Source of the DNA: Agrococcus jejuensis
GTDB lineage: Bacteria; Actinomycetota; Actinomycetes; Actinomycetales; Microbacteriaceae
NCBI RefSeq assembly: GCF_900099705.1
Contig: NZ_LT629695.1
Coordinates: forward strand, 2,294,001-2,358,000
Length of the DNA: 64,000 bases
Direction: 5' to 3'
This document shows, piece by piece, positions 8,418 to 18,682 of the stretch. Under the pieces are notes generated by a model, which was not told the DNA's origin, searched no databases, and was given only the letters and a program-made list of their open reading frames with translations. Positions within the stretch are counted from its first letter, which is position 1. The number at the start of each line of letters is the position of its first letter. The translations under genes were made by a program, and so were the position numbers.

Positions 8418-9145
8418 GCCCGGCCGATCCGATCTACGCGGGCCAGCTGCTGCTCGCGCTGCCCATCGCCCTCGCCGCGGGCGTCGTCGCGTTCGCGTCG
8501 CCGTGCGTGCTGCCGCTCGTGCCCGGCTACCTGGGACTCGTGTCGTCGCTCGCCGGCGGCAAGGACTCGCGTCGCCGACTGCTGCTCGGCGTCGCCCTGT
8601 TCATCGCCGGCTTCACGCTCGTCTTCGTGCTCGGCTCGTTCGTCGTCGGCGCCTCGAGCGAGTTCCTCATCCGCTACCGCGACGTGCTCATGCGCGTGCT
8701 CGGCGGCGTGCTCGTGGTCATGGGACTCGTGTTCATCGGCCAGCTGACCGTGTTCCAGCGGATGTGGAAGCCGCGACAGGTGCGCGCGGGCGGCATGTGG
8801 GCGGCGCCGCTCGTCGGCATCGTCTTCGCCGTCGGCTGGACGCCGTGCATCGGCCCGACGTTCGCCGCGATCAGCGTGCTCGCGCTCGACTCCGGCACCG
8901 CCTGGCAGGCGGCGCTCCTCGGCCTCGTCTACTCGCTCGGCCTCGGCATCCCGTTCCTGCTGCTCGCGCTCGGGTTCGGCTGGGCGTCGAAGGGCGTCGC
9001 GTTCGTGAAGCGGCACATCCGTGCCATCAACATCGTCGGCGGTGCCATGCTCATCGTGCTCGGCGTGCTCATGCTGTCGGGCATCTGGATGCAGGTGTCC
9101 GACGCGATCCAGGGATGGGTGGGGAATGTCGTCACGGTCCTCTGA
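8414..9145 (+). CDS. ccdA: Cytochrome c biogenesis protein CcdA
   Basis: A 243-residue polytopic membrane protein of the DsbD/CcdA family, which passes electrons from cytosolic thioredoxin across the membrane. Six hydrophobic segments are visible. The two redox cysteines lie in FASPCVLPLVPGYLG (near residue 32) and GWTPCIGPTFAAIS (near residue 140), both hallmark motifs. The start is GTG, overlapping the stop of the TlpA-like gene by four bases. The end overlaps resB by 20 bases. Confidence 0.93.
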   Translation: MSPADPIYAGQLLLALPIALAAGVVAFASPCVLPLVPGYLGLVSSLAGGKDSRRRLLLGVALFIAGFTLVFVLGSFVVGASSEFLIRYRDVLMRVLGGVLVVMGLVFIGQLTVFQRMWKPRQVRAGGMWAAPLVGIVFAVGWTPCIGPTFAAISVLALDSGTAWQAALLGLVYSLGLGIPFLLLALGFGWASKGVAFVKRHIRAINIVGGAMLIVLGVLMLSGIWMQVSDAIQGWVGNVVTVL

Positions 9146-10787
9146 CGCCGAGGCGCCCAAGAAGGCGACGGCGAAGACGGCGAAGGTGCGCACGCCCTCC
9201 GCAGGCGACCCGCTGCGCCCCTCCGACCACGTCGACGGCACGCCCACGACGGAGTCCGCCGGCGGTCCGCGCCTCGGCCCCGTCGGCTGGGCGCGCTTCG
9301 CGTGGCGGCAGCTCACGAGCATGCGCACGGCCATCGTGCTGCTGCTCATGCTCGCCCTCGCCGCGGTGCCGGGCAGTCTCGTGCCGCAGCGCTCGAGCGA
9401 CCCGAACGGCGTCATCGCCGTGCGCGACGCGAACCCCGACCTCGTGTGGCTCTACGACGCGCTGCAGCTGCACGACGTCTACACGAGCCCCTGGTTCTCG
9501 GCCATCACGATCCTGCTGCTCGTGTCGCTCGTCGGCTGCGTCATCCCGCGCATGCGCCACCACTGGGCGGCGATGCGCGCTCGCCCGCCGAAGACGCCCG
9601 CACGCCTCTCTCGGCTCGTCGGCTTCCAGACCGTGCCGGGCACGGCCGCCGACGTCGAGCGGGCCGAGGGCGTGCTGAAGCGGCTCGGCTACCGCACCGA
9701 GCGCTACGGCGACTCGGTGTCGGCCGAGCGCGGCTACCTGCGCGAGACCGGCAACCTCATCTTCCACGCGTCGATCGTCGTCATCGTCGTCGCGATCGTC
9801 GCGGGCAGCGGCTTCGGCTTCCAGTCGCAGCGCCTCGTCGTCGAGGGCGAGGGGTTCTCGCTCTCGGGCGCGAGCCTCGACACGCTCAACACGGGCCAGT
9901 GGGTCTCGGCCGACGACCTGCCGGCGTTCGGCATCCACCTCGACGACCTCGACGTCGTCTACGAGACCGAGAACATGAACGCCATCGGGCAGCCGCTCGA
10001 CTTCACCGCCTTCGTGCAGGTGACCGAGGACGGCGACACGCACCCCGGGCAGATCCGCATCAACGAGCCGCTGCGCGTGCAGGGCAGCGACCTGTACCTC
10101 ATCTCGAACGGCTACGCGCCTGAGATCACGGTGACGAACGCCGACGGCACCGTCGTGTTCGACGAGATCGTGCCGTTCCTCGCGCAGGACAACGAGATGA
10201 CGAGCCTCGGCGTCGTGAAGCTGCCGGATGGGCTCGCCGAGCAGGTGGGCCTGCAGGGCTTCTTCTACCCGTCGGCGGCGCAGCTCGAGACGGGTGCGTA
10301 CGCGTCGTACTACCCCGACCTGCTCAACCCGCTGCTGTCGCTGCAGGTCTACACGGGCGACCTCGGCCTCGACGACGGCGTGCCGCAGTCGGTGTACCAG
10401 CTCGACACCGAGGACATGGAGCAGGTCGCCGGCCGCGACTCCGCCGAGCCCGCGCTGCTCATCGGACCCGGCGAGACGGTCGCCCTGCCGAACGGCCTCG
10501 GCACGATCTCGTTCGAGGGCATCCGCCGCTACGCCGTCATCGACGTGCACCGCGACGTCACGCAGGGCTGGGTGCTCGGCGGTGCGATCGCGCTCGTCGC
10601 CGGCCTGCTGTCGAGCCTGCTCATCCCGCGCCGCCGCCTGTGGGTGAAGGCGACCGACCAGGGCCTCGAGCTCGCGGGCCTCGCCCGCGGCGAGGACCCG
10701 AGGCTCGAGGGTGCCGTCGACGACCTGGCGCGCAGGCTGCGCGGCGACGACGCCGACGCGGAGCCCGAACCGCCGCGAAGCACCTGA
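9126..10787 (+). CDS. resB: Cytochrome c biogenesis protein ResB
   Basis: A 553-residue component of the System II cytochrome c synthase, which ligates haem to apocytochrome together with CcsB. A roughly 55-residue Lys/Thr-rich cytosolic N terminus precedes transmembrane helices near 68-88 and 123-143, a third near 212-230, a large extracytoplasmic domain (about 235-475), and a last helix near 480-503. The order matches the ResB family. The start overlaps the ccdA end by 20 bases. The last 167 bases are also covered antisense by the extended eat permease frame. Its usual partner ccsB lies 7 kb downstream, beyond the ethanolamine-type locus. Confidence 0.92.
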   Translation: MSSRSSDAEAPKKATAKTAKVRTPSAGDPLRPSDHVDGTPTTESAGGPRLGPVGWARFAWRQLTSMRTAIVLLLMLALAAVPGSLVPQRSSDPNGVIAVRDANPDLVWLYDALQLHDVYTSPWFSAITILLLVSLVGCVIPRMRHHWAAMRARPPKTPARLSRLVGFQTVPGTAADVERAEGVLKRLGYRTERYGDSVSAERGYLRETGNLIFHASIVVIVVAIVAGSGFGFQSQRLVVEGEGFSLSGASLDTLNTGQWVSADDLPAFGIHLDDLDVVYETENMNAIGQPLDFTAFVQVTEDGDTHPGQIRINEPLRVQGSDLYLISNGYAPEITVTNADGTVVFDEIVPFLAQDNEMTSLGVVKLPDGLAEQVGLQGFFYPSAAQLETGAYASYYPDLLNPLLSLQVYTGDLGLDDGVPQSVYQLDTEDMEQVAGRDSAEPALLIGPGETVALPNGLGTISFEGIRRYAVIDVHRDVTQGWVLGGAIALVAGLLSSLLIPRRRLWVKATDQGLELAGLARGEDPRLEGAVDDLARRLRGDDADAEPEPPRST

Positions 10788-12504
10788 CGCCCGACCGAGC
10801 GCCACGCATCCCGTCAGCTGGTCGAGGAGCGCGCGAGCGCAGCGAGCACGCGTCACGAGACCTCGTGACGGCCGCTCCCGCCGAGTCGCGCGCATGGTCG
10901 CGCAGGGCGGGTCCGTCGCGAGGTCTCGTGACGGCTGCAGCCTTCGGCTGCGGCCTCCTCGACCAGCTGCCGGGGAGGCGCCAACCCTTCGCCACCACCG
11001 GGTCGGGCGTCGTGTCGCCGTCGTCGGCGGGCACGCCGCGCAGGCCGCCCGAGATGGCGTACTCCTCCTCGGGCGACAGCACGAGCCGGTGCCTGCCGTA
11101 GATCGCGAACCCGATGAACACGAGCACGTAGATGATGACGATCGCGACGATCGCAGGCAGGAACGACGGGTTCACGAGCACGCCCACGAACACGATGCCG
11201 GCGATGATCGCCGCCGAGTAGGCGCCCGGCAACCCCCACGGGGAGCGGTACGGGCGGGCCGCATCCGGGAACCGCCTGCGCAGCAGGATGAACGCGACCA
11301 TCTGCAGGAAGTACGCGACGACGGCGCCCCACACGGCGATGTTCAGCACGATCGCGCCAGCGGGGCTCGCGCTGCCACCCGTGGCATCCACGACCACGAG
11401 CGCCGCGAAGCCGAGCACGGCGCCGACGAGCAGCGCGACCCACGGCGTCTGCCGCGCGCCCGTGACCGAGAGGAACCGCGGGTAGTAGCCGGCGCGCGAC
11501 AGCGAGTACATGTTGCGGCCGTAGGCGAACATGATGCCCATGAGCGAGGCGAAGAGGCCGACGAGCGCGAGCAGCGCGAGCACGGCCGCGGCCTCGGGGC
11601 CGACGATCGCCGCGAAGCCCTCGAGCAGCGGCTCGCCCGAGACGCCCGTCGCCTCAGCGCCGAGCACGCCCGTGTTGAGGAACAGCACGATGAGGCCCGT
11701 GACGATGAGCGTGCCGCGAGCCCAGAGGCCGGCGCGCGGGATGTCGCGGGCGGGGTCGTGCGACTCCTCCGCGGCGAGCGGAAGCTCCTCGATGCCGAGG
11801 AAGAACCACATCGCGAACGGCAGCGCGAAGAGGATCGGCAGGATGCCCTCCGGCAGGAACGCGGAGGCGCCGAGGGCGTCGGGGTTCGGCGCCATGTCCC
11901 ACAGCGCATCCCACGAGAACGCGCCCGAGACGAGCGCCATGACGCCGAAGGCGACGATGATGCCGATCGAGATGATCGAGACGACGATCGCGAAGCCGAA
12001 CGAGATGTTGGCGCCGGCGGCGTTGAGCGCGATGAAGACGGCGTAGAGGATGGCCCAGCACACGGGACCGGGCAGGCTGAAGCCCAGCAGGGCGCTCGTG
12101 ATGCCGTCGGCGTAGAGCGCCGAGAAGTACACGACGACCGCGGTGGTGGCGACGTACTCGATCGTCTCGGCGAGGCCGGTGGCGAGGCCGCCCCACGGCC
12201 CCATGGCGCTGCGGGCGAACGAGTAGGCGCCGCCGGTGTGGGGCATCGCGGCGGCCATCTCGCCGATCGAGAACGTGAGGCCGTAGTACATGACGACGAG
12301 CACGGCGAAGGCGATGAGCATGCCGCCGAAGCCCGCGAAGTCGATGCCGAAGTTCCAGCCCGAGAAGTCGCCGGAGATGACGGCGGCGACGGCGAGGCCC
12401 CAGAGCCCCCACACGCCGGCGCTGCGCTTCAGCCTCCGCTTCTCGAAGTAGCCGTCGGCCGCGCGCGCGTATGTGACGCCACCGACCTTCCTCTGCTCTG
12501 CCAT
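10621..12504 (-). CDS. eat: Ethanolamine-type APC amino acid/amine permease, C-terminally extended
   Basis: A 627-residue frame, of which about 1-510 is a 12-helix permease of the amino acid-polyamine-organocation superfamily. The start YFEKRRLKRSAGVWGLWGLAV, then ISGDFSGWNFG and MPHTGGAYSFARSAMGPWGG, closely recall ethanolamine permeases (Eat). It would import ethanolamine or a related amine. It is divergent from the ligase and hydrolase genes that would use the substrate. Residues beyond about 511 are encoded by repeat A and then by the antisense strand of resB, so the native stop seems lost and a tail of about 116 residues gained. AGGGG precedes the ATG. Whether the tail is made and tolerated is unknown. 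Confidence 0.85.
   Translation of the reverse strand: MAEQRKVGGVTYARAADGYFEKRRLKRSAGVWGLWGLAVAAVISGDFSGWNFGIDFAGFGGMLIAFAVLVVMYYGLTFSIGEMAAAMPHTGGAYSFARSAMGPWGGLATGLAETIEYVATTAVVVYFSALYADGITSALLGFSLPGPVCWAILYAVFIALNAAGANISFGFAIVVSIISIGIIVAFGVMALVSGAFSWDALWDMAPNPDALGASAFLPEGILPILFALPFAMWFFLGIEELPLAAEESHDPARDIPRAGLWARGTLIVTGLIVLFLNTGVLGAEATGVSGEPLLEGFAAIVGPEAAAVLALLALVGLFASLMGIMFAYGRNMYSLSRAGYYPRFLSVTGARQTPWVALLVGAVLGFAALVVVDATGGSASPAGAIVLNIAVWGAVVAYFLQMVAFILLRRRFPDAARPYRSPWGLPGAYSAAIIAGIVFVGVLVNPSFLPAIVAIVIIYVLVFIGFAIYGRHRLVLSPEEEYAISGGLRGVPADDGDTTPDPVVAKGWRLPGSWSRRPQPKAAAVTRPRDGPALRDHARDSAGAAVTRSRDACSLRSRAPRPADGMRGARSGVRCFAAVRAPRRRRRRAACAPGRRRHPRASGPRRGRGPRARGPGRSPSPTGGGAG
10815..10969. repeat. 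Repeat A, copy 1: long imperfect palindrome bounded by CAGCTGGTCGAGGAG arms
   Basis: The element begins CAGCTGGTCGAGGAG and ends with the inverse, CTCCTCGACCAGCTG. Inner segments around TCACGAGACC and GGTCTCGTGA are also complementary. A second full copy lies at 25902-26059 in opposite orientation, and a half copy at 44834-44923. No open reading frame of its own. It sits between resB and the convergent permease and is read through as the C-terminal tail of the permease. Confidence 0.8.
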
Positions 12505-12693
12505 GACGTCCCCTCGTGCGACCGGGATGGGAGGAGGCGTGCCGGCGGGAGACCGGGCGCCTTGGCGATGAGCATGCTCCTAAAGGACTGGCGTGTCTAC
12601 CTTTGCGTGTGAACTCCCTGTTACGGTGCCTGCAGCGCGACGCCACGGCAGTCGCGCTCATGGTCGGGTTCGCCGTCGAGACGGGAGTGGACG
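12505..12693. promoter_or_regulatory. Divergent promoter region of the ethanolamine-type locus
   Basis: These 189 bases separate the divergent permease and ligase genes. The stretch around 12575-12625 is AT-richer than its surroundings and contains a TCCTAAAGGA near-palindrome, which could bind the FadR-type regulator encoded at the operon's end. No convincing -35/-10 pair was found. Confidence 0.35.
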
Positions 12694-14058
12694 ATGGGTG
12701 CACGCACAGGCATGCTGACGACCGACGAGCTGGCAGCGCTCGTCGCGGCCGACGAGGTCGACACCGTGATCGTCGCCTTCGCCGACATGCAGGGCAGGCT
12801 CGTGGGCAAGCGCGTGAGCGCGCGCCTGTTCGCCGAGGAGGTCGCGGACCACGGCGCCGAGGCGTGCAACTACCTGCTCGCGGTCGACGTCGAGATGAAC
12901 ACCGTCGACGGCTACGCGATCTCGAGCTGGGAGAGCGGCTACGGCGACATGGTGCTGCAGCCCGACCTCGCCACCCTGCGGCGCCTGCCGTGGCTGCCGG
13001 GCACCGCGATGGTCATGGCCGACCTGCAGCGCGTCGCGGGCGGCGACGTCGCCCCGAGCCCGCGCGCCATCCTCAAGCGGCAGCTCGACCGCCTCGCCGA
13101 GCGCGGCCTCACGGCGTTCGTCGGCACCGAGCTCGAGTTCATGGTCTTCGACGACGGCTACCGCGACGCGTGGCGCAGCGGCTACCGCGGCCTCACGCCC
13201 GCGACCGACTACAACATCGACTACGCGCTGCTCGCCTCGAGCCGCATGGAGCCGCTGCTGCGCGACATCCGCCGCGGCATGGATGGCGCGGGCATGTACT
13301 GCGAGGGCGTGAAGGGCGAGTGCAACCTCGGCCAGCAGGAGATCGCGTTCCACTACGCCGAGGCGCTCGAGACGTGCGACAACCACACGATCTACAAGAA
13401 CGGTGCCAAGGAGATCGCCGACGCGCACGGCAAGGCGCTCACCTTCATGGCGAAGTTCGACGAGCGCGAGGGCAACTCGTGCCACATCCACCTCTCGGTG
13501 CGCGGTGTCGATGGCGAGGCCGTGATGGCGGGCGACGGCGAGCACGGCTTCTCGCCGCTCATGGAGCACTGGATCGCAGGCCTGCTCGCGACGATGCGCG
13601 AGCTGACGCTCTTCAGCGCCCCCAACGTCAACTCGTACAAGCGCTACGTCGAGGGCAGCTTCGCGCCGACGGCGATCGCGTGGGGCCTCGACAACCGCAC
13701 GTGCGCGCTGCGCGTCGTCGGCCACGGCCACTCGCTGCGCGTCGAGAACCGCGTGCCGGGCGGCGACGTGAACCCGTACCTCGCGGTCGCGGCGATCATC
13801 GCAGGCGGCCTGCACGGCATCGAGCACGAGCTGACGCTCGACGACGTCTTCGTGGGCAACGCGTACGGCTCGGATGCGCCGCGCGTGCCGACCACGTTGC
13901 GCGAGTCCGCCGAGCTCTTCGCGGGCTCGGCGCTGGCGCGCGAGGCCTTCGGCGACGACGTCGTCGACCACTACCTGAACTACGCCCGCGTCGAGCTGGC
14001 GGCCTTCGACGCCGCCGTGACCGACTGGGAGCGATTCCGCGGATTCGAGAGGCTCTGA
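12694..14058 (+). CDS. Glutamine-synthetase-like gamma-glutamyl-amine ligase (GlnA4/PuuA type)
   Basis: A 454-residue ATP-dependent ligase of the glutamine synthetase family. It has the N-terminal beta-grasp domain (VDTVIVAFADMQGRLVGKRV), the metal-binding FVGTELEFMVF block near residue 147, GNSCHIHLSV near 263 (histidine-containing substrate loop) and ENRVPGGDVNPYLAVAA near 351. It is distinct from housekeeping GlnA. Beside an Eat-type permease, a PuuD-like hydrolase and an aldehyde dehydrogenase, it most likely glutamylates ethanolamine, as Streptomyces GlnA4 does, or a polyamine, as PuuA/GlnA3 do. Specificity cannot be read from sequence alone. It ends four bases before the hydrolase gene. 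Confidence 0.85.
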   Translation: MGARTGMLTTDELAALVAADEVDTVIVAFADMQGRLVGKRVSARLFAEEVADHGAEACNYLLAVDVEMNTVDGYAISSWESGYGDMVLQPDLATLRRLPWLPGTAMVMADLQRVAGGDVAPSPRAILKRQLDRLAERGLTAFVGTELEFMVFDDGYRDAWRSGYRGLTPATDYNIDYALLASSRMEPLLRDIRRGMDGAGMYCEGVKGECNLGQQEIAFHYAEALETCDNHTIYKNGAKEIADAHGKALTFMAKFDEREGNSCHIHLSVRGVDGEAVMAGDGEHGFSPLMEHWIAGLLATMRELTLFSAPNVNSYKRYVEGSFAPTAIAWGLDNRTCALRVVGHGHSLRVENRVPGGDVNPYLAVAAIIAGGLHGIEHELTLDDVFVGNAYGSDAPRVPTTLRESAELFAGSALAREAFGDDVVDHYLNYARVELAAFDAAVTDWERFRGFERL

Positions 14059-14062
14059 ACGC

Positions 14063-14794
14063 GTGACCAAGCCCATCATCGGCGTGACGACGTACCTCGA
14101 GCAGGCCGTGAGCGGCGTGTGGGACGTGCGCGCCGCCTTCCTGCCCGAGGTCTACCTCAAGGGCGTGACGGAGGCGGGCGGCGTCGCCGTGCTGCTGCCG
14201 CCGCAGGAGGCCGACCCCGAGACGATCGCCCGCGTGCTCGACGGGCTCGACGGCCTCGTCGTCACGGGCGGCAAGGACGTCGACCCGGCACGCTACGGCG
14301 CCGCGCCGCATCCGACGACCGACGAGCCGCGGCTCGACCGCGACGCGTGGGAGGACGCGCTGCTGCAGTCGGCGATCGCGCGCGACCTGCCGTTCCTCGG
14401 CATCTGCCGCGGCATGCAGCTGCTCAACGTGTCGCTCGGCGGCTCGCTCGTGCAGCACCTGCCCGACGTCATCGGCTCCGACCGCTACAACCTCGGCGGC
14501 GGCGTGTTCGCCGAGAACCCCGTCGACGTGCATGCGGGCTCGCGCCTGTCGCGCATCCTCGGCGACGAGGGCCGCGTCATGGTGCAGAGCTACCACCACC
14601 AGGCGCTCGACCGCGTCGCCGAGGGCCTCACGGTCACGGCGCGCGGCGACGACGGCGTCATCCAGGCCGTCGAGCTCGAGGGCGTGCCGTACGGCGTCGC
14701 CGTGCAGTGGCATCCCGAGGAGGACGCGCACGACCGCCGCCTGTTCGCGAGCCTCGTCGACGCCGCCCGCGTGCACATGGAGGCGCTCGCATGA
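14063..14794 (+). CDS. Class I glutamine-amidotransferase-like gamma-glutamyl hydrolase (PuuD-like)
   Basis: A 243-residue hydrolase of the peptidase C26 group. [17 protein letters not shown] near residue 112 contains the nucleophilic cysteine, and [13 protein letters not shown] near 213 the His-Glu pair. In the Puu pathway this enzyme splits gamma-glutamyl-GABA; in a glutamylated ethanolamine pathway the analogous step would release glutamate and glycine. It lies four bases after the ligase gene and overlaps the aldehyde dehydrogenase by four bases. Confidence 0.87.
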
Positions 14795-16149
14795 CGGCGC
14801 TGACCCTGATCGACCCCACCGACGAGTCGGTGATCGGCGAGGTGCCGATGGCGACGGTCGCCGACACGGATGCGGCCGTCGCGCGCGCCGTGCGGGCGCA
14901 GGAGGGCTGGTCTCGTCTCGCGCCCGTCGACCGCGCCCGTGCGCTGCGTCGCTTCGCAGCGGTCGTCGACGCGCACGTCGAGGAGCTCGCGCAGCTCGAG
15001 GTGCGCAACTCGGGGCATCCCGTCGGCAACGCCCGCTGGGAGGCGGGGCACGTGCGCGACGTGCTCGACTACTTCGCCGCGGCGCCCGAGCGGCTCATCG
15101 GCGACCAGATCCCCGTCGCGGGCGGCATGGACGTGACGTTCCTCGAGCCGTACGGCGTCGTCGGCGTCATCGTGCCGTGGAACTTCCCCATGACGATCGC
15201 GGCGTGGGGCTTCGCGCCCGCGCTCGCGGCCGGCAACGCCGTCGTCGTGAAGCCTGCCGAGTGGACGCCGCTCACCGCGCTGCGCATCGCCGAGCTCGCG
15301 CTCGAGGCCGGGCTGCCCGAGGGGCTGCTGCAGGTGCTGCCCGGCGCGGGCGACGTCGTGGGCGAGCGCCTCGTGACGCATCCCGACGTGCGCAAGATCG
15401 TGTTCACCGGGTCGACGGCCACGGGCGCGCGCGTCATGGCGGGCGCGGCGCAGCAGGTGAAGCCCGTCACGCTCGAGCTCGGCGGCAAGAGCGCCAACGT
15501 CGTGTTCGCCGACGCCGACCTCGAGCTCGCCGCCGCCTCGGCACCCGGCGCGGTGTTCGACAACTCGGGCCAGGACTGCTGCGCCCGCAGCCGCCTGCTC
15601 GTGCAGCGCAGCGTGCTCGACCGCTTCCTCGAGCTGCTCGAGCCCGCCGTGCGCGCCGTCACCGTCGGCGACCCGCGCGACGAGGCGACCGTCATGGGGC
15701 CGCTCGTGTCGCGCGCGCACCTCGAGCGCGTGCAGGGCTTCCTCGACGGCGCCGACGTCGCGTTCCGCGGCGACGCCCCCACGGGCAAGGGCTTCTGGTG
15801 CCCGCCCACCGTGCTGCTGCCCGCATCCGCCGACGACCGTCTCGCGCGCGAGGAGATCTTCGGCCCCGTCGTGAGCGTGCTGCCGTTCGACGACGAGGCC
15901 GACGCCATCGCGATGGCGAACGACAGCGACTACGGCCTCGCCGCGTCGATCTGGACGCGCGACCTCGGCCGCGGCATCCGCGTCGCCCGCGGCGTGCAGG
16001 CCGGCAACCTGTCGGTGAACTCGAACTCGGCCGTGCGCTACGCGACGCCCTTCGGCGGCGTGAAGCGCAGCGGCATCGGCCGCGAGCTCGGACCGGATGC
16101 GGCGCGCGCGTTCACCGAGACCAAGAACGTCTTCTTCGCCACCGAATGA
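14791..16149 (+). CDS. NAD(P)-dependent aldehyde dehydrogenase
   Basis: A 452-residue member of the aldehyde dehydrogenase superfamily. Visible signatures are [22 protein letters not shown] (about residue 127), [14 protein letters not shown] near 226 with the general-base glutamate, and [14 protein letters not shown] near 257 with the catalytic cysteine. It should oxidise the gamma-glutamylated aldehyde intermediate of the locus to the acid (PuuC-like role). The start overlaps the PuuD-like gene by four bases, showing a tight operon. Confidence 0.9.
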
Positions 16150-16169
16150 CCCCAGAAGGACCCCACGAC

Positions 16170-16958
16170 ATGGCCATCACCCCCATCGACCTCACCCAGC
16201 GCCTCGCGGGCAAGGTCGCCATCATCACCGGCGGCGCGAGCGGCATCGGCCTCGCCACCGCGCGCCGCTTCGCGGCCGAGGGCGCGACCGTCGTCATCGC
16301 CGACATGTCCGTCGAGGCGGGCGAGGCGGCGGCGGCCGAGGTGGGCGGCGCATTCATCCGCGTCGACGTGACCGACCAGGCCCAGGTCGACGACCTGTTC
16401 GACGAGACCGCGCGCCGCTTCGGGTCCGTGGACATCGCCTTCAACAACGCCGGCATCTCGCCCGACGACGACGACTCGATCGAGACGACCGAGCTGCCCG
16501 CGTGGGAGCGCGTGCAGGACGTCAACCTCAAGAGCGTCTACCTGTGCTCGCGCGCCGCGCTGCGGCACATGACGAGGCAGCAGTCGGGCTCGATCATCAA
16601 CACGGCGTCGTTCGTCGCGCTGCTCGGCTCGGCGACGAGCCAGATCTCGTACACGGCGTCGAAGGGCGGCGTGCTGGCGATGACGCGCGAGCTCGGCGTG
16701 CAGTTCGCGCGCCAGGGCATCCGCGTCAACGCCCTGTGCCCGGGGCCGGTGAACACGCCGCTGCTGCAGGAGCTGTTCGCGAGCGACCCCGAGCGGGCGC
16801 AGCGCCGCCTCGTGCACGTGCCGAAGGGACGCTTCGCCGAGCCCGAGGAGCTCGCGGCCGCCGTCGCGTTCCTCGCGAGCGACGACGCGTCGTTCATCAC
16901 CGCCTCGAGCTTCGTCGTCGACGGCGGCATCACCGGCGCCTACGTCACGCCGCTCTGA
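16170..16958 (+). CDS. SDR-family oxidoreductase
   Basis: A 262-residue classical short-chain dehydrogenase: TGGASGIGLATA cofactor loop near residue 19, NNAGIS near 97, catalytic serine (INTASF region) near 143, and SYTASKGG (Tyr-x-x-x-Lys) near 161. The family interconverts alcohols and carbonyls with NAD(P)H. In this operon it could oxidise the alcohol of gamma-glutamylethanolamide to the aldehyde used by the preceding enzyme; that is inference. I chose ATG 16170 over ATG 16146 because AGAAGGA lies nine bases upstream. The stop overlaps the regulator start by one base. Confidence 0.87.
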   Translation: MAITPIDLTQRLAGKVAIITGGASGIGLATARRFAAEGATVVIADMSVEAGEAAAAEVGGAFIRVDVTDQAQVDDLFDETARRFGSVDIAFNNAGISPDDDDSIETTELPAWERVQDVNLKSVYLCSRAALRHMTRQQSGSIINTASFVALLGSATSQISYTASKGGVLAMTRELGVQFARQGIRVNALCPGPVNTPLLQELFASDPERAQRRLVHVPKGRFAEPEELAAAVAFLASDDASFITASSFVVDGGITGAYVTPL

Positions 16959-17689
16959 TGGATGCGGGCGCGCACGAGCCGCCGTCGTCGCTCATCGACG
17001 ACGCGCTGCTGGGGCCCGTGCGCGCCGTCAACGCGTTCGAGGAGACCGTCGGCAGGCTGCTGCAGCAGATCCGGCTCGGCATCGTCGAGCCGGGAGCGTC
17101 GCTGCCGCCCGAGCGCGAGCTCGCGACGCGCTTCGCCGTCAGCAGGGACACCGTGCGCGAGGCGATCCGCGCGCTGACGGAGGCGGGCTACGTGCACGCG
17201 CGCCGCGGCCGCTACGGCGGCACCTTCGTGGCGTCGCAGCTGCCGGCCCCGACGGCGCTCGACGGCACGGTCGACGTCGCCGAGCTCGACGACGTCTTCG
17301 GCGTGCGCGACGTGCTCGAGCCGGGCGCCGCGCGGCTCGCGGCAGCGCGTGCGCTCTCGGCCGCCGAGCGGGCGGCGCTCACGACGCACGCGCGAGAGTC
17401 GGCGGCGGCGAGCGCCGACGACTACCGGCGCCTCGACTCGCGGCTGCACCTCGCGATCGCGGAGCTGTCGGGCGTGCCGTCGCTCGTGACGCTCGTCGCC
17501 GAGAACCGCATGCGCGTCAACGCGCTGCTCGACGCCATCCCGCAGCTCACGCGCAACATCGAGCACAGCGACGAGCAGCACCGCGCGGTCGTCGACGCGA
17601 TCCTCGCCGGCGACCCCGCGGCCGCCGAGGAGGCGATGCGCGAGCACCTCGCGGGCTCGGCCGTGCTGCTGCGCGGCTTCCTCGGCTGA
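16958..17689 (+). CDS. FadR/GntR-family transcriptional regulator (FCD domain)
   Basis: A 243-residue regulator. Residues about 25-95 form the GntR winged helix-turn-helix (PPERELATRFAVSRDTVREAIRALTEAGYV). The rest is an all-helical FCD ligand-binding domain with RRLDSRLHLAIAELSG and EHSDEQHRAVVDAI supplying the usual Asp/His metal-contact residues. Regulators of this type bind small carboxylates. Being the last gene of the ethanolamine-type operon, it probably controls it and the divergent permease; the effector may be a pathway intermediate. Confidence 0.88.
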   Translation: MDAGAHEPPSSLIDDALLGPVRAVNAFEETVGRLLQQIRLGIVEPGASLPPERELATRFAVSRDTVREAIRALTEAGYVHARRGRYGGTFVASQLPAPTALDGTVDVAELDDVFGVRDVLEPGAARLAAARALSAAERAALTTHARESAAASADDYRRLDSRLHLAIAELSGVPSLVTLVAENRMRVNALLDAIPQLTRNIEHSDEQHRAVVDAILAGDPAAAEEAMREHLAGSAVLLRGFLG

Positions 17690-17743: not shown

Positions 17744-18682
17744 ATGCCCGACGTCTCGTGGGACTCGTACTCCCTGCTCGCCGTCTACTCGTCGATGGCG
17801 GTCTACGCGATCGCGTTCATCGCGTTCGCCTTCGACGTCGCACGCCGCCGCGACCCCGCGGAGGTGCGCGAGCGCGAGCTCGTCGCCGCCGGCGGAGGCT
17901 CGACCACGACGACGGTCGCACCGGCGACGGTCGCGAAGGGCGGCCGCCGCAACCTCGCGAAGGTGGGCTTCGCGCTCACGGTGCTCGCGTGGGTGCTGCA
18001 CGTCGCGGGCACCGTCATGCGCGGCATCGCCGCCGAGCGCGTGCCGTGGGCCAACATGTACGAGTTCGCGCTCACGTCGATCGGCATCATCGTCGGCATC
18101 TTCGTCTTCGCGCAGCTGTGGCGCGACCTGCGCTTCCTCGGCGTCTACATCACGGGCCTCGCGACGGTGTTCCTCGGCGTCGCGACCGTCAACTTCTACG
18201 TGTCGCCCACGCCGCTGCCGCCGGCGCTGCAGTCGTACTGGCTCGTCATCCACGTGTTCGTCGCCGCGCTCGGCACGGGCTTCTTCGCGCTCGGCTCGGG
18301 GCTCAGCATCCTGCAGCTCATCCGCTCGAAGGCGTCGGGGCTCGCGTACGTCGACCGCCTGCCGGGTGCGAGCGCGCTCGAGGACCTCTCGTACCGCGTC
18401 TCGGTGATGGGCTTCATCTTCTGGACGTTCACGCTCATCGCCGGCGCCATCTGGGCCGAGCACGCGTGGGGCCGCTACTGGGGCTGGGACACCAAGGAGG
18501 TGTGGACGTTCGTCATCTGGGTCGTCTACGCCGGCTACATCCACGCCCGGGCGACGCGCGGCTGGCGCGGCACGAGATCCGCGTGGCTGCAGCTCATCGG
18601 CTTCGCGGCGATCCTCTTCAACTTCACGATCGTGAACGTCTACTTCAAGGGCCTGCACACGTACTCGGGTCTGCCCCAGTGA
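17744..18682 (+). CDS. ccsB: Cytochrome c biogenesis protein CcsB (haem-handling CcsA/CcsB family)
   Basis: A 312-residue polytopic membrane protein with about eight hydrophobic segments. The hallmark tryptophan-rich haem-binding loop WGRYWGWDTKEVW is at about residues 244-256, and conserved histidines flank it (VLHVAG, LVIHVFV, YIHARAT). It forms the cytochrome c synthase with ResB, presenting haem on the outer face of the membrane. It is leaderless. The family normally lies directly after resB; here a catabolic block separates them. Confidence 0.92.
   Translation: MPDVSWDSYSLLAVYSSMAVYAIAFIAFAFDVARRRDPAEVRERELVAAGGGSTTTTVAPATVAKGGRRNLAKVGFALTVLAWVLHVAGTVMRGIAAERVPWANMYEFALTSIGIIVGIFVFAQLWRDLRFLGVYITGLATVFLGVATVNFYVSPTPLPPALQSYWLVIHVFVAALGTGFFALGSGLSILQLIRSKASGLAYVDRLPGASALEDLSYRVSVMGFIFWTFTLIAGAIWAEHAWGRYWGWDTKEVWTFVIWVVYAGYIHARATRGWRGTRSAWLQLIGFAAILFNFTIVNVYFKGLHTYSGLPQ

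Follow-up and report, generated by a model that had tools for sequence, protein, structure and literature searches.

The closest described relative of the locus studied here is the ethanolamine glutamylation route of Streptomyces. In Streptomyces coelicolor, GlnA4 (SCO1613) makes gamma-glutamylethanolamide, was specific for ethanolamine among the compounds tested, has lost E327 and D50 and is negatively regulated by EpuRI (SCO1614) (PMC6529630; mBio 2019). The legend of Fig. 2 in the same paper lists a cluster with a short-chain dehydrogenase, an aldehyde dehydrogenase, a putative ethanolamine transporter and a glutamine amidotransferase, and in its Discussion SCO1611 is proposed to oxidise the alcohol, SCO1612 to act on the aldehyde and SCO1615 to release glycine and glutamate by hydrolysis. 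The SCO1611 proposal was repeated later (PMC9397018, 2022; PMC11356490, 2024). SCO1611-13 were described as an operon rising together in the transcriptome of a mutant (PMC7581861, 2020), and proteins assigned to the same four steps in Phaeobacter increase on phosphorylethanolamine (PMC10132767, 2023). Here we describe a locus in a 64,000-nt stretch (the window) of the single-contig, 3.40 Mb genome of Agrococcus jejuensis, in which a permease gene diverges from genes for a glutamine synthetase (GS)-like ligase, a hydrolase, an aldehyde dehydrogenase (ALDH), a short-chain dehydrogenase/reductase (SDR) and a FadR-type regulator. The locus belongs to the known GlnA4-type pathway, of which it is a complete and conserved example.

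With the Streptomyces GlnA4 cluster (SCO1610-SCO1615; PMC6529630) the window has ligase, ALDH, SDR, hydrolase, permease and regulator in common; ligases of Streptomyces-like loci are 63-66% and regulators 45-52% identical to those of the window. The gene order differs: the window has ligase-hydrolase-ALDH-SDR-regulator with a divergent permease, and the Streptomyces-like loci have ligase-ALDH-SDR with a divergent group of regulator, hydrolase and, where there is one, permease. The permease of the S. pristinaespiralis cluster is SPRI_5940. S. coelicolor is described as lacking this gene in PMC6529630, and in that species the permease does not define the pathway. The published labels of SCO1615 differ (formylglutamate amidohydrolase-family protein or glutamine amidotransferase; PMC6529630, PMC9397018), and a table in these texts pairs a C. 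salexigens PF00465 protein with SCO1611 as orthologues. Compared with the published labels, the loci matching the published primers carry a C26/PuuD-like hydrolase and a dehydrogenase that is an SDR.

The same four steps are proposed for Chromohalobacter salexigens and Phaeobacter (Table 2 of PMC9397018 and Table 2 of PMC10132767). Unlike the window, this type of pathway uses a PF00465 iron-containing alcohol dehydrogenase (Fe-ADH) at step 2 and a PF05013/N-formylglutamate amidohydrolase, often together with a TRAP transporter and an RpiR regulator. The ipuC isopropylamine locus of Paenarthrobacter aurescens TC1 (pTC2) resembles the window in that a GS-like ligase adjoins an SDR and a glutamine amidotransferase-like gene, but ligase and SDR are 37% and 36% identical to those of the window, genes for P450, ferredoxin and ferredoxin reductase are present and the ligase falls outside the clade described below. 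The Puu putrescine pathway shares the logic of glutamylation, oxidation and hydrolysis as well as a C26 hydrolase, but the window proteins score far under the Puu model cut-offs and an alcohol-type SDR stands where Puu has the amine oxidase PuuB.

Judged by tree placement and residues, the window ligase is GlnA4-like, not PuuA-like. In a tree of 39 rows it pairs with L086 (support 100/100) and joins the Streptomyces-like ligases, including L112 and L114, in an 11-row set (95/98); both published glnA4 primers match L112 and L114 exactly. A wider clade of 28 rows (100/100) takes in ligases from alphaproteobacterial (44-50% identical), Thermomicrobium and Allomeiothermus plasmids, with the PuuA-like L178-L181, the ipuC ligase L176 and the two GlnA paralogues of the genome outside it. 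The closest named relatives come mostly from Microbacteriaceae. F323 stands at the E327 position and the D50 motif (DGSS) is gone; the two GlnA paralogues retain both E327 and the D50 motif.

The SDR is tied to this ligase. Both genes were searched in 296 Actinomycetota genomes, with the ligase called at 45% identity or more and up to 8 SDR candidates scored per genome. The ligase was present in 85 genomes. An SDR of the NCBIfam NF004713 type was found at E<=1e-85 in 76 genomes, every one of them among these 85, and after loosening of the limit to E<=1e-78 in 78, again all within the 85; the two additions (G135, G269) carry the SDR on the ligase contig. At the looser limit no such SDR was detected in the 211 genomes without ligase or in 14 named control genomes. 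The SDR lay within 10 kb of the ligase at 72 of the 78 places found at E<=1e-85, 18 kb off at one and on other contigs at five. A survey of the kind suggested in the initial annotation, run here on this ligase against other GS-like loci, came out in favour of the SDR as a partner (78/78 SDR genomes carry the ligase), and a role as mere bystander is disfavoured by the same survey. Seven ligase genomes had no SDR at E<=1e-78 (G031, G067, G119, G173, G196, G224, G294); the contig start is reached about 1 kb or less downstream of the ligase in G067, G119 and G173, and in G224 the whole contig measures 3.2 kb.

The same pattern appeared at the level of loci. From 105 ligase places in the phylum 80 were fetched, 71 of them with a ligase identity of at least 45%, and the SDR was found in 63 of these. 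Sufficient room was available in 61, where the SDR was the most often kept partner (56), followed by ALDH (47), hydrolase (41), permease (23) and regulator (18). At 45-57% ligase identity 20 of 23 loci had the SDR (ALDH 12, hydrolase 9). Below 45% nine loci were fetched; the SDR was present in the two at 44.7 and 44.9% and missing from the seven at 34-40%. None of 30 loci collected with NF045547 had an SDR above 32% identity, a weak control since most of them were plain glutamine synthetases flanked by some 1.5 kb. Closer relatives were taken from the genome_contigs set (best 80 of 537 fetched), and 76 of these 80 showed the SDR. In the 68 with at least 5 kb downstream and at least 3 kb upstream, SDR and ALDH were kept in all 68, the hydrolase in 67, the regulator in 66 and the permease in 56. 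The grouping of genes at the locus is far from chance.

Plasmids provided a different view of the alcohol step. The 10-kb neighbourhood of the ligase (at least 44% identity) was inspected in 35 plasmid records for the SDR (E<=1e-60) and for an Fe-ADH at least 68% identical to the one of Paracoccus. The Fe-ADH was near the ligase in 22 records, the SDR in 5 and neither in 8; the two occurred together in none of the 35. One of the eight, from Allomeiothermus, has a 52% identical SDR adjoining the ligase that missed the limit and makes a sixth SDR, and one of 23 Fe-ADH plasmid records has no listed ligase. In the alphaproteobacterial plasmid loci that were read, the unrelated Fe-ADH occupies the SDR position, which suggests that unrelated enzymes may fill the same step in different phyla. 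The A. jejuensis genome contains no Fe-ADH over the cut-off (two weak matches). A complete ligase-hydrolase-ALDH-SDR run is also found on a plasmid of Arthrobacter sp. U41 typed as conjugative (L164), near choline-kinase-family, inositol-monophosphatase-family and amidase genes. Outside the clade, the GS-like ligases of L157 and L160 (37-38% identity) stand beside an Fe-ADH (41-44%), an ALDH and a C26 hydrolase, possibly another amino-alcohol pathway.

The window SDR scores above the curated cut-off of NF004713, which NCBIfam names 3-oxoacyl-acyl carrier protein (ACP) reductase; because of the linkage to the ligase this name looks wrong for the SDR. Its closest solved structure is 4wec (427.5 bits). 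We compared 141 SDRs of at least 45% identity, window included, with 14 other SDRs (30-40%) from the same loci, sets that were chosen by identity and of which the control set is small. The catalytic residues (N119, S147, Y161, K165) and D45 are kept in 140-141 of the 141, and the catalytic residues are nearly fixed in both sets. The second strand ends in D45, which by the usual rule favours NAD over NADP. Thirteen residues are specific to the clade (D101, T107, F148, T156, Q158, T162, E174, R212, R213, V215, H216, Y258, T260), each present in at least 136 of 141 against 0-3 of 14. The R-R-x-V-H motif lies in a part of the protein that as a rule lies over the substrate in SDRs, and together with the C-terminal tail it may read the glutamyl tag.

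All genes of the divergent arrangement named in the initial annotation are present, and their Pfam families agree with the names given (Table 1). The interval assigned to the locus there, 12505..17689, excludes the permease, although its description names it. The run was also called tightly overlapping, which is true of two junctions; going from ligase to regulator, the first and third junctions are gaps of 4 and 20 nt, and the second and fourth are overlaps of 4 and 1 nt. The catalytic residues expected of such enzymes are in place in the hydrolase (C115, H217, E219) and the ALDH (C263, E229), as in the SDR.

Table 1. Features of the predicted ethanolamine locus of A. jejuensis (positions within the window)
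Feature	Position	Strand	Basis
APC-family permease, probable ethanolamine importer	10621..12504	-	AA_permease (Pfam); TIGR00908 317.6 bits, below 381.75
Operator predicted for the FadR-type regulator, in the gap separating permease and ligase genes	12582..12604	.	AAAGGA-N11-ACCTTT, one mismatch to family motif
GlnA4-type gamma-glutamylethanolamide synthetase (GS-like ligase)	12694..14058	+	Gln-synt_C; groups with Streptomyces-type glnA4
C26/PuuD-like amidohydrolase, probable gamma-glutamylglycine hydrolase	14063..14794	+	Peptidase_C26 216.3 bits; GTG start
ALDH, probable gamma-glutamylaminoacetaldehyde dehydrogenase	14791..16149	+	Aldedh 527.4 bits
SDR, probable NAD-dependent gamma-glutamylethanolamide dehydrogenase	16170..16958	+	adh_short_C2; NF004713 483.5 bits, cut-off 404; ligase linkage
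FadR-type (GntR-FCD) regulator, EpuRI/SCO1614 counterpart	16958..17689	+	GntR + FCD domains

The regulator is, by its sequence matches, the counterpart of EpuRI: it is 49-52% identical to the divergent regulator adjoining the ligase in L112, L113, L114 and L118, and the published SCO1614 primers map inside these four frames with 1-3 mismatches. A palindrome, AWWGGT-N10/11-ACCWTW, is conserved in the divergent promoter and was searched as (three A/T)GGT-N10/11-ACC(three A/T). Among 97 loci with a regulator match, 77 have it in the roughly 200 nt that precede the ligase; dinucleotide shuffles, which take no account of kinship among the loci, gave 0.04 on average. The 20 without the exact palindrome include the window, with its single mismatch. 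Of 78 loci without a regulator match, six have the palindrome (L015, L020, L026, L030, L061, L083), and in all six a contig end precedes the expected regulator place. In 88 upstream regions it was found with spacing 10 in 40 and spacing 11 in 38, compared with 3 and 2 of 440 random stretches from the same loci. The palindrome is variable in its spacing and in its A/T letters, and it extends to the Streptomyces-like loci L103, L114 and L118. We regard the palindrome as the predicted operator of the FadR-type, EpuRI-type regulator; no operator or palindrome is given in the main texts of PMC6529630 and PMC8998196. A search for exact palindromes with 5-nt arms did not single out the window. The window operator is the sole site of its kind in the genome, which is not informative, as the reversed pattern also finds one.

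The sequences give the gene content, the catalytic residues, the placement of the ligase, the SDR-ligase linkage and the conserved motif; for A. jejuensis itself we infer the substrate of each enzyme, steps 2-4, the function of the operator and the inducer. In the proposed scheme the permease would import ethanolamine, which the GlnA4-type ligase would join to glutamate with ATP to give gamma-glutamylethanolamide. The SDR likely oxidises the free alcohol of this compound to the aldehyde with NAD+, the ALDH would convert the aldehyde to gamma-glutamylglycine and the C26 hydrolase would split the latter into glycine and glutamate. The FadR-type regulator would keep both divergent promoters repressed from the palindromic operator as long as neither ethanolamine nor a derivative of it is available. 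The initial annotation cast the SDR as supplier of a missing alcohol-oxidation step. The role is backed by the GlnA4-like ligase, the linkage, the Fe-ADH swap and the absence of a vitamin B12-dependent route, but the premise of a missing step was outdated, SCO1611 having been proposed in 2019 (PMC6529630). The SDR-as-alcohol-dehydrogenase idea is thus already in print and not new. What is new here, as predictions, are the exclusive SDR-ligase linkage, the Fe-ADH swap, the clade-specific residues and the operator.

We put the probability that the genes of this locus specify the known glutamylation pathway of ethanolamine at about 0.8. Several observations weigh against this reading. Our literature search, whose coverage left out most subscription journals, found no enzyme test of the SDR step. 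Three ligase genomes with room have no SDR (G031, G196 and G294, with loci L145, L127 and L141), and the second ligase copies L110 and L155 lack it despite room, these five being all such phylum loci with room. A Pfam scan of 10 neighbours at each of L127, L138, L141, L145 and L151 revealed no clear substitute alcohol dehydrogenase; L141 has an Aldedh gene, and in L127 the hydrolase is followed by fragments of an OYE-type flavin oxidoreductase. All counts share ancestry, and the Fisher value obtained for SDR and ligase in the genome survey is not to be read literally. Within the 11-row set nearest the window, L166 (5192-9359) has an aminotransferase and an ALDH in place of an alcohol dehydrogenase. 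L169 (6176-10785) of the 28-row clade has the same, and the substrates of both are perhaps diamines; L171 and L174 of the same clade have no clear oxidation module. Since clade members occur with other modules, the ligase alone does not fix the substrate and clade membership is no proof of ethanolamine; the presence of an alcohol dehydrogenase is for this reason part of the ethanolamine argument. Finally, the permease, called Eat-like in the initial annotation, has the ethanolamine permease model TIGR00908 as its best NCBIfam match by far, yet does not reach the cut-off.

The variable modules and the permease score would fit the same chemistry on another small amino alcohol (1-amino-2-propanol, 3-aminopropanol or serinol), glutamylated and then oxidised by the SDR, as the substrate range of the clade is not uniform. 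We consider this unlikely, given that the window ligase is about 64% identical to, and has the same partner genes as, the Streptomyces GlnA4 type, ethanolamine-specific according to PMC6529630, and that no NCBIfam model matches the permease better than the ethanolamine one. It is still less probable that the SDR does some other job, e.g. ketoacyl reduction, while a general alcohol dehydrogenase oxidises the glutamylated alcohol: the family name and the three SDR-less genomes with room would agree with this, but the restriction of this SDR type to ligase genomes, its place as the partner most often kept and its replacement by Fe-ADH in the alphaproteobacterial plasmid loci argue against it. A Puu-type polyamine locus, suggested by the distant relationship of ligase, ALDH and hydrolase to PuuA, PuuC and PuuD, is very improbable and was rejected by model cut-offs (NF045547, 184.2 of 650 bits; NF007352, 356.9 of 850; NF008471, 106.3 of 266) and by the ligase tree, where the PuuA-like ligases lie outside the clade; the seven GS-like loci at 34-40% identity also lack the NF004713-type SDR. 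The B12-dependent eut route was likewise rejected for this genome, which contains neither EutB (PF06751) nor a bacterial microcompartment shell protein (PF00936), as the initial annotation had expected.

Extending the ethanolamine reading to the family, we find it fairly probable that NF004713 and its wider relatives are dedicated gamma-glutamylethanolamide dehydrogenases, recruited by Actinomycetota and by the Thermomicrobium/Allomeiothermus plasmid loci where alphaproteobacteria recruited an Fe-ADH. These would read the tag via R212-R213-x-V215-H216 and a Y-x-T-P tail, and the cassette in Microbacteriaceae, mycobacteria and Streptomyces would be switched by the EpuRI-type regulator from the AWWGGT-N10/11-ACCWTW operator.

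The permease frame (627 aa) is about 110 aa longer than its relatives at 60% identity or more, which mostly measure 504-530 aa. At its 3' end (10810-10974) lies a repeat of two inverted 70-nt arms, 77% complementary, with at least 85 matches in the genome, nearly all places being counted on both strands (40 of 319 first candidates scored). A high-copy repeat element seems to have lengthened the frame. The locus stands between ResB-like (9021-10787) and CcsA-like (17744-18682) cytochrome c maturation genes. A ResB-like frame directly adjoins CcsA in 17 of 19 examined relatives of the family, the remaining two (L209/L228 and L223/L229) having no ResB nearby, and such genes were neighbours in none of 177 ligase loci. 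The CcsA-like gene begins only 54 nt past the regulator, and its expression may therefore be tied to the operon.

Altogether, the published SDR hypothesis gains strong comparative support and two sharp predictions, the clade-specific residues and the operator. The data suggest that the widely used automatic name 3-oxoacyl-ACP reductase is wrong for the NF004713 SDR family. Since the breakdown of membrane lipids commonly yields ethanolamine, knowledge of the bacteria able to use it independently of B12 is of value for annotation and ecology.

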